Part shown: positions 8,845-30,538 of the stretch, piece by piece
Layout of the letters: the number at the start of each line of letters is the position of its first letter
How positions within the stretch are numbered: position 1 is the stretch's first letter
Source: Planctomycetota bacterium
GTDB taxonomy: Bacteria > Planctomycetota > Planctomycetia > Pirellulales > Pirellulaceae
Direction: 5' to 3'
Assembly (NCBI GenBank): GCA_026692905.1
Contig: JAPLNL010000029.1
Location: forward strand, 61,034-125,033
Length of the DNA stretch: 64,000 nt
Program-made: the position numbers and the translations under genes
Notes under the pieces: generated by a model
The model's input: the letters and a program-made list of their open reading frames with translations, nothing else
Databases searched by the model: none
What the model was told of the DNA's origin: nothing

Positions 8845-10905
8845 ATGGCTTCCGGACCATCGGATGAGAATGTAGAGAACACCAAACGCCACATTCGGAC
8901 CTTGGTCAATGAGATCACGGAACTATCCAAGTCCGATGCCAAATCTGCTGAGTATTATCCGGCGGTTTTGCAGCGAATCATTTCCGCTTTGGCGGCTGCT
9001 GGCGGCGCGATTTGGTTGGTGGATGGCGACGGCAATATGAGGTTGGCTCACCAGATCCAAATGGATTCGAGCTTAATGCAGGCCAACAATCAAGAAGCCA
9101 TGATGCACGGTCGGCTTCTGACACGGCTCTTTACGCAGGGCCGGGCCGAATTGATCCCGCCTATGTCAGGGACAGGGGACGAATCGGGCGAAGGTAATCC
9201 GACTCGCTATCTTTTGGTTACAGCGCCATTGGTATCGAATAAGCAGCCGGTTGGCTTGCTTGAAGTGATGCAGCGGCCGGACTCGCCGGCAGAAGCGCAG
9301 CGTGGCTACTTGCGGTTCTTGGAGCACATGACCAAGTTGATGGGGGACTGGATTCAAGGGAACGCTTTGCAGCAGGTTTCCAATCGTCAGGAGATGTGGC
9401 AGCAGTCCGATCAGTTTGCGAGACTGGTTCACGACAATTTGGACCTCAATGATACGGCTTACACAATAGCCAACGAAGGTCGGCGGTTGATCGAATGCGA
9501 CCGGGTGAGTGTTGCGATGCTCAAGGGCGGTAAGCTCAAGGTAATAGCGATTTCGGGCCAAGACTCGATCGAAAATCGTTCGAATATTGTACAGTCGTTG
9601 AATGCCTTAGCGACGAAGGTTGTGCGCAGTGGTGAGCCACTTTGGTACGACGGTTCGATGGTAGACTTGCCGCCACAGATTGAGGAAGCGGTTGAGGACT
9701 ATGTGGATTTGTCGCATGGTCGCACGATAACGGTTTTGCCAATCCGACAGCCCGAGCGTAAGATCGAGGGCGACGTGTTGGCGGCTCGCAGCGAGACGAG
9801 TGAGACTCGAACGCGACGAGACATTATTGGCGCTTTGATCGTCGAGCAGATCGAAACGCAGTTGTCGCGTCAGACGTTGGAGGGGCGTGTTGATTTGGTT
9901 TACGAGCACTCCTGTCGTGCGCTTTCCAACTCGCTTTCGCACAGCCAGATTTTGTTCATGCCGGTTTGGCGATTTTTGGATAAGATGACATGGATGTTTC
10001 GCGGCTCGGCATTGCCAAAAACCGCCGCGATATTGGGGGCGATCGGCGTAGCTTTGCTCGCGATGTTTATTGTTCCGGTCGATTTTGATCTGGAGGGGAA
10101 TGGCAAATTCAAGCCGAGTGTGGAAAAGAATGTTTACGCTCACGTGGACGGTGAAGTGGCGGGTGTTTTCGTCAAGCATGGCCAGGATGTCGAGGCAGGT
10201 CAGCCGCTATTGAAACTAAAAAACCCGGAACTTGAGCAGCAGATAAAGAGTATTGAAGGCGAAATTGATACGCAGACGGCACGGATGAACAACGCAGGAG
10301 CTGCGAGACAAAATCCCAACATGACCACGGCTGAAAAGAATAAGAACTATCAGGAATATGAGGAAAGCAAAACAACGATTGAAGCGAAGAGAGCGCTGTT
10401 GAAGCTTTACGAAGAAAAGAATCGAAAGCTGGTTAGAACCAGTGAGATATCTGGAAGAATTTCGACGTGGGACGTTGAGAAAGTCCTGAATGCAAGACCA
10501 GTGGTAACCGGGCAGTTGTTGATGACGGTATTCGATCCCAAAGCAGATTGGGAGATCGAAGTCCTGATGCCAGAGAAGCGAATGCGATATCTTGATTTGG
10601 GAATGACCGAGGCGCTGAAGAACGGCAAGGAATATTTGGAGGTCGATTTTATTCTGATGACGGACCCCAAGGTCAGGCACAAGGCCAAGGTTTACCCCGA
10701 TGGAATTAGTCAGCGTGCGGAACTTGATACCGAGGATGGAGCTGTTGTCAAGATTCGATGCAAACCGGACAGTGAAGCGATGGAAAAGATCAAGCGATAC
10801 CCTGAAGCTCGTGTGATTGCGGACATCAAATGTGGCAAGGAAAGTGCGGCCTTCGTTTGGTTTCACGAAGTGGTTGAATGGGTCCGAGCCAATGTTTGGT
10901 TCTAG
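8845..10905 (+). CDS. Tandem-GAF sensor fused to HlyD-type membrane adaptor
   Basis: 686 residues. The N-terminal ~370 residues contain two GAF-like domains (about 25-175 and 190-340) and have no signal peptide, so they should be cytoplasmic. One transmembrane helix follows (~390-412, ILGAIGVALLAMFIVPV). It is followed by a biotinyl-lipoyl-like half motif (GEVAGVFVKHGQDVEAGQPLLKL, around 435-457), a short coiled coil and an adaptor beta-barrel region, as in HlyD membrane fusion proteins. A cytoplasmic sensor covalently joined to a periplasmic adaptor is an unusual architecture. It begins a same-strand cluster with a second HlyD protein and an M50/HlyD protein. No ABC, RND or TolC partner is in the window. 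Inference: ligand binding to the GAF domains gates an envelope complex. Confidence 0.85.
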   Translation: MASGPSDENVENTKRHIRTLVNEITELSKSDAKSAEYYPAVLQRIISALAAAGGAIWLVDGDGNMRLAHQIQMDSSLMQANNQEAMMHGRLLTRLFTQGRAELIPPMSGTGDESGEGNPTRYLLVTAPLVSNKQPVGLLEVMQRPDSPAEAQRGYLRFLEHMTKLMGDWIQGNALQQVSNRQEMWQQSDQFARLVHDNLDLNDTAYTIANEGRRLIECDRVSVAMLKGGKLKVIAISGQDSIENRSNIVQSLNALATKVVRSGEPLWYDGSMVDLPPQIEEAVEDYVDLSHGRTITVLPIRQPERKIEGDVLAARSETSETRTRRDIIGALIVEQIETQLSRQTLEGRVDLVYEHSCRALSNSLSHSQILFMPVWRFLDKMTWMFRGSALPKTAAILGAIGVALLAMFIVPVDFDLEGNGKFKPSVEKNVYAHVDGEVAGVFVKHGQDVEAGQPLLKLKNPELEQQIKSIEGEIDTQTARMNNAGAARQNPNMTTAEKNKNYQEYEESKTTIEAKRALLKLYEEKNRKLVRTSEISGRISTWDVEKVLNARPVVTGQLLMTVFDPKADWEIEVLMPEKRMRYLDLGMTEALKNGKEYLEVDFILMTDPKVRHKAKVYPDGISQRAELDTEDGAVVKIRCKPDSEAMEKIKRYPEARVIADIKCGKESAAFVWFHEVVEWVRANVWF

Positions 10906-10969
10906 TCCGTCGACGCTAAGTGCATAACAATACAGATTTAGAATACTTGTTTTTGATGGGACACCGATT

Positions 10970-12229
10970 ATGGCTGATAAGAAACTGACGATAGGACTTC
11001 CAATTGCTCTTGTGCTGGGTTGCAGTGCTTTGGCGTTTGGCGTTGTGCCTGGCGTTCGGGATTGGGTCGACCAAATGATTCCATGGCTTGGAATCAACGG
11101 CCCAAGGTCGGTTGCTCAAAGTCAAAAAGGACCGACAGCAACGGGTTTAAAGGCTGAGGATGAAAAAGCAGAGCAAGCACCGGTTGCTGGGAACGCCACC
11201 GCTTCGGAGGCCGCACTGCGTACCGAGGTCGAAGTCAACAAGCCTAAGTTCGCAGTGCAGTTTGCAGGAGGGGCTGAGCCGATCGCAAATGAACCTCCGA
11301 TCCAAAACCAGGACAACGCTCCGACGGTTAGTCCTTTCCTCAGAACGACACCTGCATCTACACTTCCAACCCTTCCTACAACAGGGTTGAAAGTTCCAAC
11401 TTCCGAAAACGGAGTATTAATAATCGAAGGTGCGCAGGTCACATTTCCGGATGACATTACGGTCAGCGCCACTGCGGAAGGAACAATACTGAAATTGTTG
11501 GTCGATGATGGTACCGTCATTGAAGCTGGCATGCCGATGATCGAAATCGATTCACGATTAGCGGAGAAGGAAGTAGTCGTTTCCGAGAAAGAGCTCAAGG
11601 CGGCTAACTTGAAAGCGAATGATGACAGCAATGTCAAATACTCAGAGGCAGCCAAGGAAGTGGCGAGGCAGGACGTTGAGATATCAAAAGAATTGATCAA
11701 GAGTCGCGCAGAGGGAATTATGGAAGGCAGAAAGAAGGAACTTGAATTCAAGAAGGCATCGCTGCAAGTCACCGTATCAACTATCGAAAAGGAGCGAGAC
11801 CAAGCCGATGTTGGCGTTAAAACCGCGAAGGTGGAAGCGGCTAGAGTTCAACTCGAGCTCCGTAGGATTAATGCACAGCGAACTGGGGTTGTGAATCAAG
11901 TTGTCAAACGTCAATACGCTTATGTTCGAGCCGGGGAACCGATCCTCAACCTTACATCCATGGAGAAAATTCGCATCACTGGAACAACACCAAGGCTTTC
12001 TGAGTCTCCACACCTGCTGTTGAATTCACCGGCCCGAGTTACCATCAATTATGCTGTGGGGAAATCCGAAACGGTGGATGGAATCGTCACCTATGTGAGC
12101 CCCAAAAGCGATGGTCCCAACCAGTACAAGTTGCATGTGGATTTGCCAAACCGACTGACTCCCGATGGCCAATATCTGTTCCGAGACGGAATGGTTGCTG
12201 ATATCGAAGTAAGAACTCGAAGCCGATAG
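10970..12229 (+). CDS. HlyD-family membrane fusion protein
   Basis: A 419-residue periplasmic adaptor anchored by one N-terminal helix (~residues 7-25, IGLPIALVLGCSALAFGVV). After a low-complexity linker come the first lipoyl half (~168-192, GTILKLLVDDGTVIEAGMP), a long coiled-coil hairpin rich in Lys and Glu (~195-290), the second lipoyl half and a beta-barrel region. Adaptors of this type bridge inner- and outer-membrane transport components. It lies 64 bases after the GAF-HlyD gene and 79 bases before the M50-HlyD gene. Three adaptor-type proteins in a row suggest a hetero-oligomeric adaptor ring. The linker is longer than usual. Confidence 0.88.
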   Translation: MADKKLTIGLPIALVLGCSALAFGVVPGVRDWVDQMIPWLGINGPRSVAQSQKGPTATGLKAEDEKAEQAPVAGNATASEAALRTEVEVNKPKFAVQFAGGAEPIANEPPIQNQDNAPTVSPFLRTTPASTLPTLPTTGLKVPTSENGVLIIEGAQVTFPDDITVSATAEGTILKLLVDDGTVIEAGMPMIEIDSRLAEKEVVVSEKELKAANLKANDDSNVKYSEAAKEVARQDVEISKELIKSRAEGIMEGRKKELEFKKASLQVTVSTIEKERDQADVGVKTAKVEAARVQLELRRINAQRTGVVNQVVKRQYAYVRAGEPILNLTSMEKIRITGTTPRLSESPHLLLNSPARVTINYAVGKSETVDGIVTYVSPKSDGPNQYKLHVDLPNRLTPDGQYLFRDGMVADIEVRTRSR

Positions 12230-12308
12230 TAGAGAATGGTTCGCTGCTTTTCTGGCAGCGGTTTGCTGTTTGCCCACAACTCGTTAGCCAAAAGAAAGCC
12301 CAAGCTAT

Positions 12309-14549
12309 ATGACAACGATGGCGGATTCACTCGTCAATAGCGCGATGCGCCCGCTGAGGCTGCGTCGTCGTCCTGACTTGGAGTCACGTCGCCATCGTTA
12401 CGATGGCAGAGCGTATTGGGTGGTCAAGGAGCCAGTCGGCCTCAATTACTTCCGTTTTCATGAAGAGGAGTTTGCCATTCTCAATATGTTGAATGGTCAG
12501 ACATCGCTCCAGCAAATTCGCGAGTCCTTTCAGGCTGAGTTCGCGCCGCAGCGAATTTCGCTTCAAGACTTGCAGCAGTTTGTTGGAATGCTCCATCGCA
12601 GCGGACTTGTTATCTCGCACGCTGGTGGACAAGGTCGTCAGTTGCGTCGGCGCGGAGATCAAAAGCGCAAGAAAGAGTTGTTAGGGAAATTTGTTAATGT
12701 GTTCGCCATTCGTTTTCGTGGGATTGACCCCGAGCGGATTTTGAATCGTTTGCTTCCATGGTTCGGTTGGCTATTTACGACTTGGTGCATCATGCTCGTT
12801 GCGGTGATTGGCTTAATGGCCATCACGCTGGTGCTGGTCAACTATCAAGAGTTCAAGGGTAAGCTTCCGACGTTCCAGCAGTTCTTTGCTGCCAATAACT
12901 GGATCTGGCTTGGAGGCACGATGGCAGCAGTGAAGATACTTCACGAGTTCGGGCATGGACTGAGTTGTAAGAAATTTGGCGGCGAGTGCCACGAGATGGG
13001 CTTCATGATGCTCGTTTTTACTCCGTGTTTATATTGCAACGTATCTGACTCTTGGATGTTGCCAAACAAATGGCAGCGAGTGTTCATTGGTGCGGCCGGA
13101 ATGTATGTCGAGTTGATACTTGCCTCGATTGCCACCTTCCTTTGGTGGTTTAGCGAGGACGGGATGTTCCGCTTTTTGTGCTTGAGCGTCATGTTCATCT
13201 GTTCGGTAAGCACAGTGGTTTTCAATGGGAACCCTCTACTGCGTTTCGACGGATACTACATCACGATGGACACGTTGGAGATTCCCAATCTTCGTCAAAA
13301 ATCGAGCGAGATACTAAAGCGTTGGTTTCAAAAGACTTGCTTAGGTCTCGAATTGCAAGACAACCCCTTTCTGCCAACGCGCAACAGTGCGATGTTTGGA
13401 ATCTACACAATCGCTTCCTTTATTTACCGCTGGGTCGTGGCATTCGGAATCATTATGTTTCTAAATCAAGTGCTTAAGCCATATGGATTGCAGTCTTTGG
13501 GACGAGCGTTTGCAGTGGCGGGTGTGGCTGGGATGGTCGTGCCAGCGTTCTCGGCAGTTTATAAGTTCCTCAAAACGCCAGGAAGGGCAGCCAAAATCAA
13601 ACAAGGAAACGTGCTTACCAGTTTGGGAATCGCCTCCGCGGTATTAGCTTTCCTTTGCTTTTTCCCGCTTCCCTACCACGTTTATTGCCCGAGCGAAGCT
13701 CAGCCTAGAGAAGCACTCGAAGTTCATACGCTTGTTGCGGGTAAGCTCGTTGGTTGGCAGACCAAACCTGGGCAGCCGATTGCTAAGAACGCACCGATCT
13801 GCAAGTTAGAGAATTTGGATTTGACGATCAAGATCCAAGAATCACAAAGCGAAATCCGGTTTACAGAGTCGCAGATTGAACAAGCGACTTACCTATCGAA
13901 TACGGACCGACGAATGATACGAGAGTTGGACGCACTTCGAAGCGACTTAAAGAAGAAACAGGATGTCCTGACGACACTAAAGGAGAAAGAAGACAATCTC
14001 ATCATTCGGAGTCCGATCGATGGCTTTGTTGTTCAGTCTGCGGACAAAGAAGAAAGCAAGGCGGCTAAAGCTCAAGGGCAATTGCCCGGTTGGTTTGGGA
14101 ATCCGTTTGCCGATTGCAATTCAGAGGCGGTGTTCAGTGAGGGCGAGTTGGTTTGCCTAGTTGCCCCGACACGGGAAATGGAAGCCGTGATTGTTGTTGA
14201 TCAACACGATCGTGAAGAACTCGACGAAGGAAATGAAGTCGAGTTCATGTTTGATGCTGCGGCTTTGGTGTCCGTCAAAGGAAAGATTATCCGCTTTTCA
14301 GAATCTGAGTTGAAGGAAGTGTCACCCAGTTTATCCATTACTTCAGGGGGGACGCTTGATACCAAAACAGACGAGATGGGCAAGACTCGACCAATTAGCA
14401 CATCGTATCCAGCAACGGTAGAGCTTATCGGAACGGACGCCCCATTGCGGGCTGGTTATCGAGGCAACGCGAAAGTCCACTTGGCATGGAAATCCCTCGG
14501 CTCTCGTTTTTATCGTTACGTTCTCAAAACCTTTAACTTTGAATTTTAG
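12309..14549 (+). CDS. PqqD-like / M50 metalloprotease / HlyD fusion membrane protein
   Basis: 746 residues. The N-terminal ~100 residues look like a PqqD-type winged-helix domain (YDGRAYWVVKEPVGLNYFRF...). A polytopic site-2-protease-like M50 domain follows. Its zinc motif HEFGH is at H212-H216, and a plausible third ligand is D314 in NPLLRFDGYY. More transmembrane helices (to ~460) lead to a C-terminal HlyD-like part with split lipoyl motifs and a coiled coil (~470-740). Related proteins include the YydH group, which works with exported peptides in Firmicutes. Here no ABC transporter or precursor peptide is adjacent. Catalytic residues are intact, so it may cleave a membrane or peptide substrate during export. 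It is the third gene of the cluster. Confidence 0.87.
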   Translation: MTTMADSLVNSAMRPLRLRRRPDLESRRHRYDGRAYWVVKEPVGLNYFRFHEEEFAILNMLNGQTSLQQIRESFQAEFAPQRISLQDLQQFVGMLHRSGLVISHAGGQGRQLRRRGDQKRKKELLGKFVNVFAIRFRGIDPERILNRLLPWFGWLFTTWCIMLVAVIGLMAITLVLVNYQEFKGKLPTFQQFFAANNWIWLGGTMAAVKILHEFGHGLSCKKFGGECHEMGFMMLVFTPCLYCNVSDSWMLPNKWQRVFIGAAGMYVELILASIATFLWWFSEDGMFRFLCLSVMFICSVSTVVFNGNPLLRFDGYYITMDTLEIPNLRQKSSEILKRWFQKTCLGLELQDNPFLPTRNSAMFGIYTIASFIYRWVVAFGIIMFLNQVLKPYGLQSLGRAFAVAGVAGMVVPAFSAVYKFLKTPGRAAKIKQGNVLTSLGIASAVLAFLCFFPLPYHVYCPSEAQPREALEVHTLVAGKLVGWQTKPGQPIAKNAPICKLENLDLTIKIQESQSEIRFTESQIEQATYLSNTDRRMIRELDALRSDLKKKQDVLTTLKEKEDNLIIRSPIDGFVVQSADKEESKAAKAQGQLPGWFGNPFADCNSEAVFSEGELVCLVAPTREMEAVIVVDQHDREELDEGNEVEFMFDAAALVSVKGKIIRFSESELKEVSPSLSITSGGTLDTKTDEMGKTRPISTSYPATVELIGTDAPLRAGYRGNAKVHLAWKSLGSRFYRYVLKTFNFEF

Positions 14550-14649
14550 CAGATTCCTGCACGTACCAAAGTTACGTGGTACAGTTATTGTTGTACGGAG
14601 AGGGGCCTAAGCCTTCTCAACCTTTGTTTCTAGGAGTGAACTTAAACTT

Positions 14650-14985
14650 ATGTCAACAGATCTACAAACACCAGACGCCGCCGAGGCTCAGCGCCAACAA
14701 CCACAAAACGTCCAAGTCCAAGTGCACGACGCAGACGCAATTGCTTGTTATGCGAATTTCTGCCGCGTCACCGGCTCTCCAGAAGAATTGATCGTCGATT
14801 TCGGTCTTAACCCACAGCCAGTTGGGGTGCCAAAGGATCCGATCCATGTTAAGCAACGCATCATTATGAATTTCTTCACAGCCAAGCGTTTGCTCGGCGC
14901 ACTTCAAATGTCCATCCAAAGACATGAAGCTGTCTTTGGCGTCCTTGAGACAGACATTCAGAAGCGATTGCGCGTCCAACAGTAA
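14650..14985 (+). CDS. DUF3467 family protein
   Basis: A 111-residue soluble protein. The core from ADAIACYANFCRVTGSPEEL through VDFG and HVKQRIIMNFFTAKRLLGAL matches DUF3467, a small domain of unknown function normally ~80-100 residues long. The N-terminal ~25 residues are Gln/Asp-rich and disordered. It starts 100 bases after the M50-HlyD gene on the same strand and is followed at once by an intrinsic terminator, so it is probably the last gene of the transcript. An AGGAG lies 13 bases before the ATG, longer than ideal. Whether it is a regulator, a chaperone or a substrate of the envelope complex is not known. Confidence 0.85.
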   Translation: MSTDLQTPDAAEAQRQQPQNVQVQVHDADAIACYANFCRVTGSPEELIVDFGLNPQPVGVPKDPIHVKQRIIMNFFTAKRLLGALQMSIQRHEAVFGVLETDIQKRLRVQQ

Positions 14986-15013
14986 TTTGTTGTGGTGTTG
15001 CCAATGAACTTAG

Positions 15014-15046
15014 AAACAGCTCGCGATCTTGCGAGCTGTTTTCGTT
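15014..15046 (+). terminator. Intrinsic terminator after the DUF3467 gene
   Basis: Arms AAACAGCTCGC and GCGAGCTGTTT form an 11-bp stem with a 6-base loop, followed by TTCGTTT. It lies 29 bases after the DUF3467 stop codon and marks the end of the 8845-14985 transcript. Confidence 0.85.
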
Positions 15047-15092: not shown

Positions 15093-15237
15093 GTAGCACG
15101 ACGCGCAAGCTAGTGAATCTTGTAGCACGACGCGCAAGCTAGTGAATCTTGTAGCACGACGCGCAAGCTAGTGAACCTTGTAGCACGACGCGCAAGCTAG
15201 TGAACCTTGTAGCACGACGCGCAAGCTAGTGAACCTC
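15093..15237 (+). repeat. Five tandem 29-bp copies of the dispersed repeat arm
   Basis: Five direct units of 29 bases, each beginning GTAGCACGACGCGCAAGC and ending GAATCTT, GAACCTT or GAACCTC. Elsewhere in the window this arm appears once and faces an inverted partner; only here is it expanded. The units are contiguous with no spacers, so this is not a CRISPR array. Confidence 0.95.
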
Positions 15238-16997: not shown

Positions 16998-17028
16998 CTT
17001 TTTTTACGAATTGGGAACTCTTTTGGCT

Positions 17029-17688
17029 ATGGATGCGTCCGTTACTACAGCAACTAATCAAGCGGAGGAAACTGCGTTGATCGACTGTATCGTTTCGGGC
17101 CAAGCATCCAAATTTGAAATCCTGGTTGGAAACTACCAGCAGCGGATTTACGCGTCCTTGGTCGCAATGCTCGGCAATCGCCACGACGCCGAGGATGTGA
17201 CTCAGGAAACGTTTTTAACGGCGTTTCGCAAGCTGGACCAATTCGAGCGTCGGTCGTCGTTTTACACGTGGCTTCATCGAATCGCCTTCAATGCAGCCAT
17301 CGATTTGCAGAGGCGCAAGAAACGAACGAAGAATCTATTTTCGACTGGTGACAAGACCGAGACAGCGGAACCCAAGGAATATTATTCGGATTCGCCTGCA
17401 TCGATCGTCATGGCGAAAGAAACGGTTTGCCAAGTGCAGATCGCATTGTCACGCCTCGATGAAGAACGAAGGAACATCATCGTCCTACGGGACTTGCAAG
17501 GAATGGATTATGCCGAAATCGCTAAGATGTTGGGAATCCCGGTAGGAACGGTTCGCAGCCGCTTGCATCGAGCGAGGATCGAATTGAGAGAAATCATGAA
17601 TGCCATGGGGATCGGCGATCATGCCACGCAGCCAAACCAAGCCGCATTGAAAAATAAGACAGTTGCCCAAGGGAGGGACCAACGATGA
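17029..17688 (+). CDS. ECF-type RNA polymerase sigma factor
   Basis: A 219-residue sigma-70 family factor with only regions 2 and 4. Region 2 includes NRHDAEDVTQETFLTAFRKL and FYTWLHRIAFNAAID. Region 4 includes RNIIVLRDLQGMDYAEIA and the helix-turn-helix PVGTVRSRLHRAR. It directs RNA polymerase to a stress or envelope regulon. The ATG at 17029 is preferred over an in-frame TTG at 17011. The stop codon overlaps the next start in ATGA, and that gene encodes the probable anti-sigma factor. Confidence 0.93.
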   Translation: MDASVTTATNQAEETALIDCIVSGQASKFEILVGNYQQRIYASLVAMLGNRHDAEDVTQETFLTAFRKLDQFERRSSFYTWLHRIAFNAAIDLQRRKKRTKNLFSTGDKTETAEPKEYYSDSPASIVMAKETVCQVQIALSRLDEERRNIIVLRDLQGMDYAEIAKMLGIPVGTVRSRLHRARIELREIMNAMGIGDHATQPNQAALKNKTVAQGRDQR

Positions 17689-18836
17689 ATCCAGAGTTGA
17701 ACTCTGAATTTGAGGAAGTCCTGCTGACGGCTTACTTGGACGACGAAGTGACCGATGAGGAACGCGCTCTTGTTGAGAAACAACTTCGTACCTCCGAGTC
17801 CTCCCGCAAGCTATTAGAGGAGCTTCGTTCGGTTCGCGATCTGGTCGTTCAATTGCGCATGACACAACCAAGCCGAAGCTTTCAGCAAGGGCCTTGGAAC
17901 GACAATAGAGAGACCGTGGCATCTTCCCAAGTTGTTTTGAACGACCATCGATCCGGTTGGAATAAGTCATTCCAAAGACTTGCAAGCTTAGCGGCATTGA
18001 TTGCCGTCGGGGTAGGCGTCAGTGTTCTCCTGTTTGGTCCTAAGTGGAGCACGATGGCTATGACGGAAAACGCAAAGGCGCCACTCGGGGCGGGCGGAAC
18101 CGTGCTTGGGAACGCACAAGCTCCGGCTGCAGTTCCGAAGTCCACGCCTTCCGAACTCGATTTCTTGCTGCCATTGATTCAAAAAGAGGCCGATGCGGAT
18201 TGGTTGGCCGTAGATGGTCGCATGGAGTCGGCGACCATCGTTGATAAAGAGGATCGTGATTTGGCCTTAAAAGAAGCTGAGGCCAGCCCGAAAATTTCGC
18301 CCCCACAGGCCCGATATATCTTTCGATTTCAAGGAACCGTCTCCGATCAAGGCAAAGGGTCATTTGATGGGCTTGATATTGCAAAAAAACGATATGCAGC
18401 CGTCGCAGCGAACGAGTTGAGACTACGCTCCACCAAAAAGGAAATCGACGAAGCTGCCAATCCCATATTGATTGAATTGCAGATATCGTCAGATAACTGG
18501 GCATCAGGTTCCGAACGTCTTCGGCAAATGGGCTTCGATGTCCCTCTTGAGCTACCTCAAACCGAGTACCTGGATTTCACCGCGATTCAAATCCCAAAAG
18601 ATGCTTCGGGGCTGGGTACCACGACCGACATTGCAGTGAACCCGTTGGAAACGGACGTGAAGCAGTCCAATGCGACTCCTGCGATTGGCTGGGTGCTCCG
18701 ACGCATCGATTTAAGTCGTAATCCATTGGATTCGAAACAGGCGAGCGTTACGAACGCTGGTTCGAAAAATGAGCAGCTGGGGACGCAGCCGGAAGGACAA
18801 ACAAGGATTCGCGTTCGAGCGATGAAAAAAGAGTAG
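17685..18836 (+). CDS. Probable membrane anti-sigma factor
   Basis: 383 residues, translationally coupled to the sigma gene. The N-terminal ~60 residues (LLTAYLDDEVTDEERALVEKQL) resemble the anti-sigma domain found beside ECF factors, but the zinc His-Cys-Cys ligands are absent. A single transmembrane helix lies at ~102-120 (LASLAALIAVGVGVSVLLFG). The remaining ~260 residues should be extracytoplasmic and I do not recognise them; they contain long low-complexity linkers. The expected role is to hold the sigma factor inactive until an envelope signal acts on the outer domain. Function is inferred from operon position and topology. Confidence 0.8.
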   Translation: MNPELNSEFEEVLLTAYLDDEVTDEERALVEKQLRTSESSRKLLEELRSVRDLVVQLRMTQPSRSFQQGPWNDNRETVASSQVVLNDHRSGWNKSFQRLASLAALIAVGVGVSVLLFGPKWSTMAMTENAKAPLGAGGTVLGNAQAPAAVPKSTPSELDFLLPLIQKEADADWLAVDGRMESATIVDKEDRDLALKEAEASPKISPPQARYIFRFQGTVSDQGKGSFDGLDIAKKRYAAVAANELRLRSTKKEIDEAANPILIELQISSDNWASGSERLRQMGFDVPLELPQTEYLDFTAIQIPKDASGLGTTTDIAVNPLETDVKQSNATPAIGWVLRRIDLSRNPLDSKQASVTNAGSKNEQLGTQPEGQTRIRVRAMKKE

Positions 18837-22522: not shown

Positions 22523-22679
22523 AGGCTTAAGGCTTAAGGCTTAAGGATTAAGCGACAACTGACAACTGACAACTGACAACTGACAACTGACAACTGACAA
22601 CTGACAACTGACAACTGACAACTGACAACTGACAACTGACAACTGACAACTGACAACCGAAAACCGAAAACCGAAAACT
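22523..22679. repeat. 7-bp tandem repeats just upstream of moxR
   Basis: Four 7-base units of AGGCTTA (the last is AGGATTA) at 22523-22550. After a 3-base gap come 18 more units at 22554-22679: fourteen GACAACT, one GACAACC, two GAAAACC and one GAAAACT. The block fills almost the whole DUF4159-moxR gap and ends 5 bases before the moxR ATG, so it replaces the usual ribosome-binding site. The identical units suggest recent slippage. Confidence 0.95.
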
Positions 22680-24723: not shown

Positions 24724-26906
24724 GTTTCCTGGCTCCGTTGTATGCTTTGGCAGGACTTGCGATTGCGCTGCCGATTCTGTTTCATTTGATTCGAAGTCGG
24801 CCCAAAGAGCAAAAGCTAATGAGTTCGCTCATGTTTCTTGAGCCAACGCCTCCTAAGCTAACTCGACCGAGCAAAGTCGATCAGTGGTTGCTGTTGCTGC
24901 TGCGCGCGATTGCGATCGGGTTGCTTGCGTTCGCCTTTACACGACCTTATTGGAATGCTCCCGCCGAAAAAGACACGGATAAGATTGGGGTTCAAAGGAT
25001 TTTGCTGATCGACACCAGCGCCAGTATGCGACGCGATGGGCTTTGGGATGCAGCGACCCAGCGGGCGGAACAGATTGTTCGACAGTCTGGCCCAACCGAC
25101 GCGATTTCCGTTTACCAGTTCGATGCGACCATGCGCCCGTTGATCGGGATCGAGAGCGCTTTGCAAACCCCGGCTGCGCAGCGCCAGACGCAAGCGTTAG
25201 CCGGTCTGAAGAACCTTGCACCAACTTGGATGCATACGGATTTAGGATTGAGTTTGCTGACTGCTGCCGATCTTTTGCAAACCGATTGGGACTCATCATC
25301 GGACTCGAATGCGACGTTGAGTGAGATCGTGGTTGTAACGGATTTTCAGAACGGTGCCGAGTTAGAACGGCTTGCCGAGTACACTTGGCCTGCGTCCTGC
25401 AAAGTTCGAATCGAACGGGTCGAGGCGAGGGTGAAAGGGAATGCCAGTCTAACTTTGTTAACCCCTGAAGATGTGCTAAACAAGGACACATCGACCCGCC
25501 GCGATACGCCATCGGGAGGTAGTGCGACCACCGCGCTCGCAGATGCGGAACAGCTTCGCGTACGGGTTTCAAACACAGTTGGCTCAGCGAACGAATCGTT
25601 TCGATTGCATTGGCTCGACGGCGAACTCCGTCCGATCGAGGAGTCGCTTACTTCGTGCCGTGTTCCAGCTGGCAGTTCGTTGACGGTGCGAATGGCTGCT
25701 CCACCGAAAGGGGCGGTTGCCATTGAGCTTGATGGAGACAGTTCGGACTTTGACAACCGTTATTTCTTTTGTCGGACAGAGCCGATACAGACTAGACTGA
25801 TTTGCGTTGAATCCGCAAGCAGAGCACCAGACGAATCGCTGGGCTATTTCCTGGCCCAGTTACCGCTAAGCGATGCGACGCGAAAGGTTTCCTATCAACA
25901 ACGTCAACCAGCTTCAATCGATCCATGGCCCTCTGCTGCTGAAACGCCGCTCATTGTGGCTTCCCATGAATTAGTTTCTTCGGACATGGATGGGTTGGGA
26001 GAGTATATGAACCAGGGTGGCAGTTTGCTCTGGGTTTGGGATACAGGTGCTGTATCGAATGACGTTGAAGGTTCGAGCATATCAGTCGACTACGCACTTG
26101 GAATGCAGAAGCTAGCCGGGTCCAACGACGGTGAAGTTTCGGAAGCAAAAGTTCGTCAATATGCGATGTTGGAATCGGTGGACTTCAAGCATCCATTGTT
26201 CGCAGACCTCGCCGATTCCAAATTCAATGATTTTTCCAAGTTGCGATTTTGGAAGCACCGTCGGATTCAATCGCAGCCTTCGGACGAATGGCGGGTTTTG
26301 GCAAAGTTCGATGACGGTTCGCCGGCCTTGATCTACAAAGAGCGAGGGGCCGGGAAGCTTTGGATTCTATTGTCGGGTTGGCAACCGCTCGAGAGCCAGT
26401 TGGCTTTGTCGACCAAGTTTGTGCCTCTAATATCTGGTTTGTTTCGAATCTCGGCACCTGTGATCCACGATGATGTTTCGTATCGAGTGGGCGCGACGCT
26501 GACGATTCCGGGCGATCAGAAAATACTGGACCGATCTGGCCGTGAGGTTTCCGCTGAGAAAAGCGATAAGGAAATCGGTGAGAAAACAGATGGGAAGGGT
26601 GTCAAGACAGCCGCGTTGTCAGAGCCGGGAGTCTTTCGTCGTCAAAATGCAAACGGTACTGAGACTTGGCTGGCTGTGAATGCAATGGATTCCGAAAGCA
26701 ACACTTCGGTTGGCGGACTTGAGCGATTGGAAAAGCTTGGCGTCGTTATGTCCGATAGCAAGCCGCCGAAATCGGATGAATCGACTCGCCGCCAATTGAG
26801 AGCGGTTGAGCTAGAATCACAGCAGGGCTGGTGGCGGTGGATGATCTTCGGTGTCATTGGCGTTATTGGTGTGGAATCTTTATTATGCATTCGCAAAGCA
26901 GGTTGA
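24720..26906 (+). CDS. BatA-like membrane protein with VWA domain
   Basis: 728 residues. The N-terminus carries the BatA-type double helix: a first span (YALAGLAIALPILFHLI), then LMSSLMFLEPTPPK, then a second span (LLLLLRAIAIGLLAFAF). A VWA domain follows with the MIDAS motif LIDTSASM. The middle part includes a glutamine-amidotransferase-like segment (LGEYMNQGGSLLWVWD), and a last helix lies near the C-terminus (MIFGVIGVIGVESLLC). It probably forms a membrane complex with the downstream VWA protein under MoxR control. It is coupled to its neighbours by ATGA upstream and a 2-base gap downstream. Confidence 0.9.
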   Translation: MSFLAPLYALAGLAIALPILFHLIRSRPKEQKLMSSLMFLEPTPPKLTRPSKVDQWLLLLLRAIAIGLLAFAFTRPYWNAPAEKDTDKIGVQRILLIDTSASMRRDGLWDAATQRAEQIVRQSGPTDAISVYQFDATMRPLIGIESALQTPAAQRQTQALAGLKNLAPTWMHTDLGLSLLTAADLLQTDWDSSSDSNATLSEIVVVTDFQNGAELERLAEYTWPASCKVRIERVEARVKGNASLTLLTPEDVLNKDTSTRRDTPSGGSATTALADAEQLRVRVSNTVGSANESFRLHWLDGELRPIEESLTSCRVPAGSSLTVRMAAPPKGAVAIELDGDSSDFDNRYFFCRTEPIQTRLICVESASRAPDESLGYFLAQLPLSDATRKVSYQQRQPASIDPWPSAAETPLIVASHELVSSDMDGLGEYMNQGGSLLWVWDTGAVSNDVEGSSISVDYALGMQKLAGSNDGEVSEAKVRQYAMLESVDFKHPLFADLADSKFNDFSKLRFWKHRRIQSQPSDEWRVLAKFDDGSPALIYKERGAGKLWILLSGWQPLESQLALSTKFVPLISGLFRISAPVIHDDVSYRVGATLTIPGDQKILDRSGREVSAEKSDKEIGEKTDGKGVKTAALSEPGVFRRQNANGTETWLAVNAMDSESNTSVGGLERLEKLGVVMSDSKPPKSDESTRRQLRAVELESQQGWWRWMIFGVIGVIGVESLLCIRKAG

Positions 26907-26908
26907 GC

Positions 26909-29900
26909 ATGGATCCGCAAATCGCATACTTACTGTCAACTGTTTCGAATCGATTTCGAAGATTAAGATTCGCACGACTTCTGACCGCAGGTTGGATTCT
27001 CGTCGCGGTGGTAGCCCTATGCCTTGCGCAGTCGAATGCGTTGCCTAAGTTTAGTCGTTCGATTTTGCTTGTCGTGCTGGGTGGTGTTGTCGGACTTTGG
27101 CTTGCATGCAAACTGGCCTATAGGGATTTACGATGGATTGCGAACCGAATCGAAACGCAGTTTCCAACTTTGAAACAACGATTGGTGACTGCGATTCAGC
27201 CTATGCAAGCGAGCACATCTAGGTACCTAAGGAAAGCACTGGTCGATGAGACGATTGAGCACGCACGATCGAACGACTGGCAACAAACCGTTGCCACTCG
27301 CAGTCTCATCGGCGCATGGGCGGTGCAGTATATGGCGATGGCTTTGGCTCTCTTTACCTGCTTCTCTGTCTATTCCTCTTTGGCGAATCGACGCGATTTG
27401 ATTCCAACCGGTCCGAACAAGTTGATGTCGGACTCGGACCAGATCAAAGTGGAACCCGGAGATGCGGAAGTCGAACGAGGAAGCGATTTGGTGGTAAGCG
27501 TTCGATTTGCCGGCCAGGTTCCAAACGAAGCTTGGATCGATTCCGAATGCAAGACTGGCGACAAAGCGCGGCATTCCATGCAGCGCAGTCTCAAGGACCC
27601 GCTCTTCGGTGGCTATCTGCGAAACCTACAAATCGATTCTTCGTATCGAATCGACTATCTCACTGGGATGAGTTCGCGTTTTCAAATCAAGGTTTTTGAA
27701 TTTCCATGCCTGACGCAAAGCGACGCCAAAATGGAATCGCCAGAGTACGCCAAGCTTACCGTCAAGGAGATAGCCGATACACGACGCGTTTCGGTGGTGG
27801 ATGGCGCCAACTTAACTTGGAAATGCCAACTGAACAAACCGGTATCGATTGCTGAACTCATCGATCAAGATGGCGTTGCGACGCCGTTGGTTGCATCGAA
27901 AGACGATCCGCTACGATTTGAGGCGAACTTTGTGATGACCGAGTCGAGAAAATGGAAATTGCGATTGGTGGACAAAGAGAATCGAGCGGCCAAGTTCGAG
28001 GAGGAGTTGTCAGCGAAAGTGATTCCGAATCAACCACCTGAAACAAAACTGGTCAAAGCTCAGGACCAAAGTGTGTCGCCACTCCAAGAGTTAGAAATGA
28101 AGGCGACGGTCAAGGACGATTTTGGCGTACAACGTTCTGGTTTGACGTTTATGTTAGGAGATGCCGAGCCGACCGAGATCGTTTTGCCGGTCAATGAAAC
28201 GAAACCAGGCAAGGCGGAGCTATCGCATTTGATTGACTTGGAGTTGTTGCAAGCGAAACCGGACCAACTGCTAAGCTACTATTTTTGGGCAGAAGACATC
28301 GATCGAGACGGGGAAGTGCGTCGCGTGGATGGCGATATGTTCTTTGCTGAGGTACGCCCGTTCGAGGAGGTCTTCCGTGAAGGCGAGAGCCCAAGCAAGG
28401 AGCAACAAAGACAGCAACAACAACAGCAGCAAAGCGAAGGAGAAAAGAAAGCTGAGGACCTAGCTGAATTGCAGAAGCAAATTATTACAGGTGCTTGGAA
28501 TGTGATCCGACGTGAAAAGCCAAAAGCCATCAGCAAATCGTTTGCCGAGGACGTCAAACTGTTGGCAGATTCGCAGAGTGAAGCGATCGGGATGACGAAC
28601 AAGCTAGCTGAGTCGATTGAGGACCAGCAATCGGTAAAGTTTCTCGAGCAAGTACGAGTCGCCATGAACGCGGCCAAAGAACTATTTGAAAAGGCATCCA
28701 ACGATTCGGAGATCGTGCCTCTTCGAAGTGCGCTTCGCAAAGGACGTGAAGCATACGAAGGATTGTTACGACTTCGCGCTCGCGAGCATCAGATCGTGCA
28801 AGCTCAGCAGCAACAGCAGCAGAAATCACAGCAGAATAGCTCGCAAAAGAACCGACAACAACAAATCGATCAATTGAAGCTTGAGGACAACGAAAATCGC
28901 TACGAAACGGAGCAAAAGGCCGATACCGCCGAACCGTCCGCCGAACGTGAAACTCGACAAGTCATGAATCGACTTGCGGAATTGGCGAAACGTCAAGAAG
29001 ACTTGAACGAGCAGATCAAGAGTGTTGAGACTGCCTTGCAAGAAGCAAAGACCGAGGAAGCAAAGAAGGAACTCGAGGACCAGGTGAAACGATTGCGAGA
29101 AAACCAAGAGGAGCTGCTTCGAGACTCAGACGAAGTGCTTGAGCGGATGAACCAGCCGGAAAATCGCGAATCGATGCAAGAGGCACGTGAACAAATGGAA
29201 CAAGCGAGAAGCGATATGCAAAAGTCTGCCGAGTCCTTGGCAAAGAGCGAGACCTCTCCGGCGATTTCTTCCGGTACCCGAGCTCAGCGTCAGATGGACG
29301 AGACCAAGGACCAAATGCGGCAATCATCGTCGAGCCAGCTAGAGCAGACCATGCGAGATATGGTGCAGGACGCCAAACGTTTGGAAGAGCAGCAAAAGAA
29401 ATTAGAGGAAAAGTTAGCCACTTCCAATCAGCCCACCTCAGCAGCATCGACCGACGAAGAAATTTCAGGGCCCGTAGATGAGTCCGCTTCACCGCTTCGT
29501 CCGGATGGAGATACGCCCAAAGAGCCTACGACACGCAAAGATTGGCAGGCACAAAAGAAGGAACTCAAAGAGTTGCTGGAAAAGATGCAGGCAACTGTCT
29601 CAGAGGCTGAATCGAGCGAACCACTTTTGGCCGAAAAACTCTACGATTCTTTCCGTGAGAGCAAACAAAAGGGGCTTGAGCAACGCATGGACGAAATCCC
29701 AGTTTACGTTGAACGGGGGCTTGAGGAACAAGCGAGACGCTCGGCGAGTGAACTCAATCAAGGGATACGAAACCTGAAGGAGAATATCGAGAAGGCCTCG
29801 GAAGATGTGTTGGGGAGCGAAGAGCAGTCGCTCAGGCGAGCGCTCAAGGAGTTGGAGCGAGCGGAACGTCAACTGGATGCGGAACTGGAGAAAAGGGACC

Positions 29901-30538
29901 CAACGGGCAAAGGCCCGCGCGAGGGAGTTCCATCTGCAGATGAGCAAAACCAAGAGCAATCAGGACAACAACGGGAGGGCCAGCAACAACCTGGCCAGCA
30001 ACAACCTGGACAACAACAACCTGGACAACAACAACCTGGACAACAACAACCTGGACAGCAACAACCTGGACAGCAACAACCTGGACAGCAACAACCTGGA
30101 CAAGATCGACAACGGGGGGGCGAGCCGTCGAATCTAGGGAATCGAAACGCGGGACCATTGCAACGGATGCCACCCGGTGGTGTCGACTACGGACCGTTGA
30201 CAGGAACAGAATATTCCAATTGGGTCGACTCGTTGCGCGATGTTGAGGAATTGGTAACAGATCCGGAAATGAAGGGGGAAGTCAAACGAATTCGTGAAGC
30301 TGCTCGCGAAGTGCGTGTCGATTACAAGCGACATTCGAGAGAGCCGCAATGGTCGCTGGTCCGTGAGCTGATTGCGAATCCGATTGAGCAATTGCGAGAA
30401 AAGGTTCAAGAGGAACTATTGCGCAAATCCTCCGAACGAAGCTCTATTGTGCCCATCGACCATGACCCGGTCCCGAGCAAGTATCAGCAGCAACAGGACC
30501 GCTATTACGAGAACCTTGGGGGCGCTAAGAGTCGATGA
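26909..30538 (+). CDS. Large coiled-coil membrane protein, DUF4175-like
   Basis: 1209 residues from the ATG two bases after the upstream stop; a longer frame from 26831 overlaps that gene and is rejected. Three N-terminal transmembrane helices (within ~20-65 and ~130-160) precede an Ig-like extracytoplasmic region. A very long Gln/Glu/Lys-rich coiled coil (~490-1020) follows, then eight exact QQQPG repeats (~1025-1064) and a conserved C-terminal domain (YGPLTGTEYSNWVDSLRDVE). The layout resembles DUF4175-type proteins, which sit in the same kind of operon. The role is probably structural within the envelope complex. It is coupled to the next gene by ATGA. Confidence 0.82.
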   Translation: MDPQIAYLLSTVSNRFRRLRFARLLTAGWILVAVVALCLAQSNALPKFSRSILLVVLGGVVGLWLACKLAYRDLRWIANRIETQFPTLKQRLVTAIQPMQASTSRYLRKALVDETIEHARSNDWQQTVATRSLIGAWAVQYMAMALALFTCFSVYSSLANRRDLIPTGPNKLMSDSDQIKVEPGDAEVERGSDLVVSVRFAGQVPNEAWIDSECKTGDKARHSMQRSLKDPLFGGYLRNLQIDSSYRIDYLTGMSSRFQIKVFEFPCLTQSDAKMESPEYAKLTVKEIADTRRVSVVDGANLTWKCQLNKPVSIAELIDQDGVATPLVASKDDPLRFEANFVMTESRKWKLRLVDKENRAAKFEEELSAKVIPNQPPETKLVKAQDQSVSPLQELEMKATVKDDFGVQRSGLTFMLGDAEPTEIVLPVNETKPGKAELSHLIDLELLQAKPDQLLSYYFWAEDIDRDGEVRRVDGDMFFAEVRPFEEVFREGESPSKEQQRQQQQQQQSEGEKKAEDLAELQKQIITGAWNVIRREKPKAISKSFAEDVKLLADSQSEAIGMTNKLAESIEDQQSVKFLEQVRVAMNAAKELFEKASNDSEIVPLRSALRKGREAYEGLLRLRAREHQIVQAQQQQQQKSQQNSSQKNRQQQIDQLKLEDNENRYETEQKADTAEPSAERETRQVMNRLAELAKRQEDLNEQIKSVETALQEAKTEEAKKELEDQVKRLRENQEELLRDSDEVLERMNQPENRESMQEAREQMEQARSDMQKSAESLAKSETSPAISSGTRAQRQMDETKDQMRQSSSSQLEQTMRDMVQDAKRLEEQQKKLEEKLATSNQPTSAASTDEEISGPVDESASPLRPDGDTPKEPTTRKDWQAQKKELKELLEKMQATVSEAESSEPLLAEKLYDSFRESKQKGLEQRMDEIPVYVERGLEEQARRSASELNQGIRNLKENIEKASEDVLGSEEQSLRRALKELERAERQLDAELEKRDPTGKGPREGVPSADEQNQEQSGQQREGQQQPGQQQPGQQQPGQQQPGQQQPGQQQPGQQQPGQQQPGQDRQRGGEPSNLGNRNAGPLQRMPPGGVDYGPLTGTEYSNWVDSLRDVEELVTDPEMKGEVKRIREAAREVRVDYKRHSREPQWSLVRELIANPIEQLREKVQEELLRKSSERSSIVPIDHDPVPSKYQQQQDRYYENLGGAKSR
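29981..30100 (+). repeat. Eight 15-bp in-frame repeats encoding QQQPG
   Basis: Eight tandem units of CAGCAACAACCTGGA, with CAA/CAG and third-base variants, encode (QQQPG)x8 inside the coiled-coil protein gene. The high DNA identity of the units implies recent expansion; copy number is probably variable between strains. Confidence 0.95.

Follow-up and report, generated by a model that had tools for sequence, protein, structure and literature searches.

A planctomycete GAF-HlyD/M50-HlyD locus as a probable membrane-adaptor part of an exporter of LEPR-XLL giant proteins

What do three HlyD-type adaptors do in a locus that holds no pump for them to serve? The question is raised by four genes at positions 8845–14985 of a 64,000-nucleotide stretch of DNA (hereafter the window; contig JAPLNL010000029.1, positions 61,034 to 125,033, of assembly GCA_026692905.1) from a planctomycete of the family Pirellulaceae. 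In order, they encode a GAF-HlyD protein, a second HlyD adaptor, a fusion of a PqqD-like region, an M50 membrane protease and an HlyD part (M50-HlyD), and a DUF3467 protein. A first-pass annotation, made from the letters of the window and their translations, had proposed that the adaptor-bearing proteins form one complex in which a cytoplasmic ligand controls proteolysis or peptide export, possibly with the membrane protease in place of a pump. We consider it probable, at roughly 0.7, that the locus is the membrane-adaptor part of a dedicated exporter of giant surface proteins bearing an N-terminal LEPR-XLL tag. The sequence itself shows which parts are present, that they occur together and that they lie next to LEPR giants; the export function is our reading of these findings.

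A published module and its recurrent neighbors

Secondary SecA_DEAD proteins of Planctomycetes and Proteobacteria have been described as encoded alongside proteins with M50, GAF and HlyD domains, at times together with an OEP gene (Kamneva, Poudel and Ward, 2015; PMC4452313). These authors found no ABC, MFS or RND pump, proposed that SecA replaces the ABC ATPase with the M50 protein as pore and the GAF protein as regulator, and called the biological role of the module completely unknown; their text names no substrate, DUF3467 or PqqD/RRE domain. Judged by its genes, the window locus is a copy of this type I secretion-related module. It has the GAF-HlyD, M50-HlyD and extra HlyD genes, with a secondary SecA in the genome, but its SecA gene lies outside the cluster, on another contig; Kamneva et al. 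likewise report cases in which the SecA gene is split from the adaptor genes. What the first-pass annotation had come upon was therefore a module already in print, here with its SecA gene elsewhere (contig 86), and the annotation's idea of a protease in place of a pump comes close to the 2015 proposal. Later literature on the module was not found in a search that was thin on subscription papers and without bioRxiv preprints.

To place the locus among its relatives, we used 149 planctomycete genomes (sampled species genomes, many incomplete), calling M50-HlyD present at E < 1e-30, and clustered the genes, called as longest ORFs (open reading frames), around 40 M50 relatives plus 80 named loci, a procedure in which HlyD-bearing profiles are at times cross-labeled (for example, M50 versus GAF-HlyD). 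M50-HlyD relatives occur in 32 of the 149 genomes. The nearest named relatives come from Pirellulaceae, uncultured Pirellula among them (76% identity, L126). The order GAF-HlyD > HlyD > M50 is repeated in dozens of named planctomycete contigs; among the 80 named loci, GAF-HlyD neighbors the M50 gene in 54, a second HlyD gene recurs in 57 and DUF3467 adjoins in 19. Recurrent in both locus sets are GAF-HlyD, HlyD, DUF3467, a SecA-like protein of ~650 residues and a TolC-like OEP. Two recurrent neighbor families of ~650 residues were considered as ABC exporters and turned out to be SecA-like and OEP. A neighborhood check suggested with the first-pass annotation asked whether GAF-HlyD and DUF3467 accompany M50-HlyD and whether a constant pump gene does: the co-occurrence is conserved, and no ABC, MFS or RND gene recurs beside M50-HlyD in these 41 + 80 neighborhoods.

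The recurrent ATPase is SecA-like. SecA2 > GAF-HlyD > HlyD > M50 > DUF3467 forms a single-strand run in three named contigs, and a secondary SecA adjoins the module in relatives L039, L136, L137 and L144; in L039, from a genome of the same family (G121), it lies immediately upstream of GAF-HlyD. The SecA2-like protein retains DEAD, P-loop and preprotein cross-linking domains, and such proteins score below the SecA2 equivalog cut-offs. In the genome that yielded the window, the secondary short SecA2-like ATPase (674 aa) is encoded on contig 86. This gene stands away from the module, beside genes that by eye look flagellar hook-type, with flgK/flgL-like N-termini (region L081:5161-13402).

DUF3467, at 84 bits against a cut-off of 25 in the window protein, tracks M50-HlyD across the phylum: 21 of the 28 genomes with DUF3467 also have M50-HlyD (Fisher p = 4e-12). 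It is a recurrent component of the module, and new as such as far as the searched literature shows. Together with the recurrent gene order, this bears out the earlier view that DUF3467 and the three adaptor-bearing proteins belong together. A model of the protein (pLDDT 83) has a beta-beta-beta-alpha arrangement, soluble and without transmembrane (TM) segments, with weak VIA-align matches to COMMD (best, Z 5.2) and then PUR/PC4. A SecB-like chaperone was considered for it, and the model matched no fold with confidence (best Foldseek E 0.24). A protein with tandem DUF3467 domains is encoded elsewhere in the genome (G000:C111:827-1576), and in other Planctomycetia a tandem-DUF3467 gene lies directly 3' of a single-DUF3467 gene.

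LEPR-XLL giants as probable cargo

Several M50 loci hold very large ORFs with an N-terminal LEPR-like motif. In three planctomycete loci (L141, L165 and L170) the module is followed, in the same orientation, by such a giant, and in relatives giants reach about 16,000 aa. The source assembly of 5.96 Mb has four M50-HlyD copies, and the LEPR-XLL model (NF012209) has five matches in it, two of them above its cut-off of 17 bits and the other three in large frames. Two LEPR giants are found at distances of 6 and 11 kb from other M50 genes of this genome. On contig 46 a LEPR giant starts right after an HlyD adaptor gene, divergent from a TolC-like (OEP) gene, and the copy on contig 38 has the order giant with RTX/cadherin repeats, PilZ, GAF-HlyD, M50. 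The first-pass annotation had noted the lack of pump, channel and precursor; this is true of the window, but the same genome encodes a SecA2-like ATPase, TolC-like proteins and LEPR-XLL giants elsewhere.

Tag and module also go together across the phylum. NF012209 is short, with 24 positions, and misses variants; at E <= 1 it is too loose, matching 78 of the 149 genomes, and we therefore counted only matches above the curated cut-off. By this measure 16 of the 149 genomes have LEPR-XLL, and 15 of these have M50-HlyD, against 17 of the 133 genomes without an over-cut-off match (p = 5e-11). Among the 117 genomes that lack M50-HlyD, a single one (G044) has LEPR-XLL, in a match limited to model positions 8-19. 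The association holds when counted by family (M50-HlyD in 11 of 12 LEPR-XLL families, p = 1.4e-7), and in families of mixed M50 content no M50-free genome had a LEPR match.

Outside the phylum, alphaproteobacterial plasmids bring the parts together in cassettes. A tblastn search of plasmids with the window M50 protein gave 80 records, from the top 40 of which loci were picked by hand. In Pontibrevibacter a single strand carries a LEPR giant (31.8 kb), DUF3467, GAF-HlyD, RRE/M50/HlyD, a SecA2-like gene and HlyD. Pseudosulfitobacter has a LEPR giant (38.7 kb), GAF-HlyD, M50, SapC, SecA2 and HlyD, without DUF3467; the SapC-family gene (L207:16170-16991) is inserted between M50 and SecA2. The Methylosinus order is a 26.5-kb giant, DUF3467, GAF-HlyD, M50, SecA2, HlyD and TolC, and the Mesorhizobium cassette is similar, differing in that its second HlyD lies on the opposite side. 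Thalassospira has a LEPR giant, DUF3467, an adaptor, M50, HlyD and TolC, and Pseudohalocynthiibacter has DUF3467, GAF-HlyD, M50 and SecA2, with no giant within the stretch read. Cassette genes annotated as 'prepilin peptidase', 'DEAD/DEAH helicase' or 'hypothetical' are SecA-like.

All nine plasmid giants read at their start have the leader motif and lack a hydrophobic signal stretch, and a tenth leader-bearing giant lies near the M50 gene of Azospirillum B510, so that the tag stands beside the cassette in all ten proteobacterial plasmid-borne giants read (10 loci). Five of the nine leaders are (L/M)EPRxLL(S/N)AD-like and four are LExRx(M/L)FD(A/G)A-like. A looser LExR regular expression gave false matches, for example in a kinase; the strict form, used for the chance estimate, occurs in 0 of 5117 internal windows. 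From these neighborhoods and the genome counts we judge LEPR-XLL giants to be the likely substrates of the module, in place of the exported peptide first envisaged, a link that is new as far as the searched literature shows.

A candidate reader domain and a zinc site in the M50-HlyD protein

How the module might recognize such proteins is suggested by gene 3. By Pfam it matches Peptidase_M50 (3.9e-6; 26.8 bits, marginally below the cut-off of 27.2) and HlyD_3 (4e-5), and its HExxH motif and distal aspartate lie in membrane segments, as in site-2 (M50) proteases. The zinc site reported as intact proved invariant: H212, E213, H216 and D314 are retained in 30 of 30 aligned M50 relatives, at identities down to 20%. 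A working protease is therefore expected of this part, and not a membrane pore alone. We also looked for viral relatives of the protein and found none.

The PqqD-like region matches PqqD by Pfam sequence at E = 0.013, with 16.3 bits against a cut-off of 23.4, and a sequence search of the domain against the PDB places PqqD, PqqC/D and TfuB1 first, each at E 0.01-0.02. The fold is clearer. An AlphaFold2 model of the N-terminal 120 residues (pLDDT 87.9) has as its top Foldseek matches lasso-peptide B1 proteins with bound leader (5v1v, 6jx3; E 7e-4 and 9e-3), to which VIA-align gives Z 10.5-10.6 across 83-86 residues; further matches are TigE and, at Z 8.4, PqqD. As modeled, the domain (residues 16-106) is a winged helix of the leader-binding RRE/PqqD type, which Pfam alone would miss. 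The fold thus backs the PqqD-like assignment and strengthens the earlier suggestion that the domain binds a peptide, binding itself being our inference. The LEPR leaders are the obvious ligand, and on the modeled fold we hold the chances that the domain binds them to be about even. Within the literature searched, both this fold and the 30-of-30 zinc site are new here. RRE/PqqD domains such as those of TbiB1, TfuB1 and PqqD share the fold, but in gene 3 it forms one protein with a membrane protease and an export adaptor.

A candidate export route and its alternatives

In the route that we propose, the giant would be made without a classical hydrophobic signal peptide, its N-terminus carrying a basic stretch and LEPRxLLSA, and M50-HlyD would bind this leader through its RRE/PqqD-like domain, on the cytoplasmic side. 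The short SecA2-like ATPase would drive the unfolded chain over the inner membrane, possibly threading it through the M50 membrane part, and the zinc site would probably cut off the leader or cleave a chain that has stalled. For the conduit through periplasm and outer membrane, the three adaptor proteins would contribute their HlyD parts, joined by a TolC-like protein. The tandem GAF domains might gate the system via a cytoplasmic ligand, and DUF3467 might act in the cytoplasm as a small accessory protein, possibly as chaperone or adaptor of either the giant or SecA2; both roles are guesses, and the ligand control that was claimed earlier has the presence of the GAF domains as its whole basis.

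Two observations touch on regulation. PilZ genes, encoding cyclic di-GMP (c-di-GMP) receptors, lie beside two other M50-HlyD copies (L036:12269-12667 and L037:12012-12458), a hint that c-di-GMP may control the export of giants. The window also encodes a guanylate/adenylate cyclase-domain protein (643-2523), some 6 kb upstream of GAF-HlyD, which might be a source of a GAF ligand.

Several findings weigh against the export of LEPR giants by this module. The window itself holds no giant, SecA2 or TolC, so an export role is assigned to its copy by inheritance from relatives. No LEPR-XLL protein over cut-off is present in 17 of the 32 M50-HlyD genomes, and DUF3467 is present in distant control genomes too. 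The SecA_DEAD counts are in favor of the link, with at least two matches in 24 of the 32 M50 genomes versus 16 of the 117 others, but they include split domains, and 8 of the 32 have one match or none. A second subtype, on E. coli IncF plasmids and on plasmids of Variovorax, Azospirillum and Niveispirillum (L216, L215, L212, L218), consists of a giant with an LExRx(M/L)FD(A/G)A leader, TolC, two HlyD genes and M50-HlyD, without SecA2, GAF or DUF3467 alongside, so that SecA2 is not strictly required where the leader is of a related type. In the few examples at hand, leader and exporter subtypes seem to correspond: LLSAD leaders go with GAF, DUF3467 and, in most cases, SecA2, and MFDAA leaders go without them.

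Within the export reading, the inner-membrane step has two versions. Accessory SecA2 of Gram-positive bacteria is a second, shorter SecA serving a subset of large surface proteins, and accessory SecA2 proteins of other bacteria act with SecYEG. The planctomycete protein is likewise a second, shorter SecA, with partners here of the HlyD/M50/TolC type. SecYEG and SecA2 could thus move the giants, with M50-HlyD as a processing or docking platform instead of a channel; the domains kept by the SecA2-like protein fit this version, but SecY substrates typically have a hydrophobic stretch, which these leaders lack, and we think this version unlikely, if a serious contender. Passage without SecYEG, suggested by these leaders, is a tentative proposal that falls somewhat short of even odds.

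Compared with type I secretion (HlyB/HlyD/TolC), the module has HlyD adaptors, a TolC-like channel (on contig 46 and in the cassettes of relatives) and very large substrates with RTX, cadherin or Ig-like repeats in common. It differs in having a SecA-like motor and no ABC ATPase, either in the locus or recurrent in relatives, and an N-terminal leader where type I substrates have a C-terminal signal. Bacteriocin PCAT exporters offer an analogy in combining leader recognition, protease and adaptor, but their protease is of the C39 type and the one here is a zinc site-2 protease. It is possible, though we would bet slightly against it, that this is a secretion system of its own kind, in which a fused RRE, intramembrane zinc protease and adaptor stand where an ABC exporter would otherwise be, force comes from a dedicated short SecA without SecYEG, and LEPR-type giants are the cargo.

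The locus could instead mature and export a small ribosomal peptide, with M50-HlyD as a daptide- or epipeptide-like protease with an adaptor and a short unannotated ORF as precursor. The best NCBIfam match of gene 3 is daptide_HExxH (NF041824; 8e-56), followed by LiaK/YydH (7e-14), and the RRE fold is typical of enzymes of ribosomally synthesized and post-translationally modified peptides (RiPPs). The intramembrane metalloproteases of these pathways (NF041824, NF058609) share an M50 core with an N-terminal PqqD-like region. However, the daptide_HExxH score of 189.8 bits is far below the cut-off of 300, and gene 3 differs from these proteases in its fused HlyD part and its association with giant proteins, not short precursors. 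No other RiPP enzyme recurs beside the M50 gene, and what recurs in the cassettes is a giant with a leader-like motif. We regard the small-peptide explanation as improbable.

Marginally less probable still is regulated intramembrane proteolysis, in which a GAF-controlled M50 protease would cut a membrane-bound, anti-sigma-like regulator and the adaptors would only hold the complex together. The invariant zinc site and the GAF domains would suit it, as would a gene pair 2 kb downstream (17011-18836), where an ECF sigma factor gene precedes one for a zf-HC2 anti-sigma-like protein, next to an M32 carboxypeptidase and a TPR/Peptidase_MA protein. This pair is not a recurrent neighbor of the module, however, and HlyD in three proteins, with recurrent TolC, SecA2 and giant genes, indicates transport. 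That the adaptors are ordinary accessories, as HlyD families normally are, of a pump (ABC, MFS or RND) whose gene lies elsewhere, as below-cut-off matches to RND_mfp and type_I_hlyD might suggest, is very improbable given that no pump family recurs here or in Kamneva et al. and that the recurrent ATPase is SecA-like.

All four ORFs were confirmed on the plus strand with the domains first assigned to them (Table 1). Pfam finds GAF (1.2e-8), GAF_2 (6e-7) and HlyD_3 (4e-7) in gene 1, whose single strong TM helix spans residues 394-412, and gene 2 has one membrane segment at its N-terminus; HlyD-type membrane fusion domains are thus present in genes 1, 2 and 3. The terminator noted at the cluster end is real, with a perfect 13-bp stem and a T-rich tail. 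Genes 2 and 3 are separated by a second hairpin (12241-12261), weaker but likewise with a T-rich tail, so the four genes need not form one uninterrupted transcript and separate transcription units are possible.

Table 1. Features of the four-gene locus, in window coordinates.
Feature	Positions	Strand	Details and evidence
Gene 1, GAF-GAF-TM-HlyD protein	8845..10905	+	686 aa; cytoplasmic tandem GAF, one TM helix, periplasmic adaptor (ORF, Pfam, hydrophobicity)
GAF domain 1, gene 1 aa 40-162	8962..9330	+	PF13185/PF13492
GAF domain 2, gene 1 aa 200-343	9442..9873	+	PF01590
HlyD-like part, gene 1 aa 428-599	10126..10641	+	PF13437/PF16576
Gene 2, second HlyD-type periplasmic adaptor	10970..12229	+	419 aa; PF13437 (HlyD_3) 3e-8
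Gene 3, RRE/PqqD-like - M50 site-2 protease - HlyD fusion	12309..14549	+	746 aa; Pfam
N-terminal RRE/PqqD-fold domain, gene 3 aa 16-106	12354..12626	+	AlphaFold2 model, Foldseek, VIA-align
Zinc-site motif HEFGH, gene 3 aa 212-216	12942..12956	+	H, E, H invariant in 30/30 relatives
Third zinc-ligand motif NPLLRFDGY, gene 3 aa 308-316 (D314)	13230..13256	+	N308, P309, D314 invariant in 30/30
HlyD-like C-terminal part, gene 3 aa 458-665	13680..14303	+	PF13437; profile matches EmrA/MacA-type structures
Gene 4, DUF3467 protein	14650..14985	+	111 aa; PF11950 7.6e-24
Intrinsic terminator hairpin 3' of DUF3467	15013..15042	+	-19.7 kcal/mol, z -4.66

The window also holds several repeats. The 19-bp sequence ACGACGCGCAAGCTAGTGA occurs 12 times (expected 0), five of them in a near-perfect 29-bp tandem array at 15093-15236, just after the module terminator; the other copies, at 2592, 2624, 7432, 7465, 15408, 44711 and 44741, are mostly in inverted pairs about 30 bp apart, and the repeat is REP-like. 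Two adjoining heptamer arrays, AGGCTTA x4 and GACAACT x18 (97% identical), lie between ORFs at 22523-22679. A 15-bp coding repeat is present in 8 copies at 29981-30102, within a 1235-aa ORF (26831-30538), in a stretch with an AT skew of 0.33.

Linking the module to LEPR-XLL giants would give a machine orphaned since 2015 its cargo, an orphan sorting tag its reader, the RRE domain, and DUF3467 a context. Module, tag and DUF3467 would become testable in hosts that are harmless and can be cultured, among them Methylobacterium extorquens AM1, from which the four-gene operon has been reported. Leader recognition in the style of RiPPs would then serve to sort giant surface proteins.

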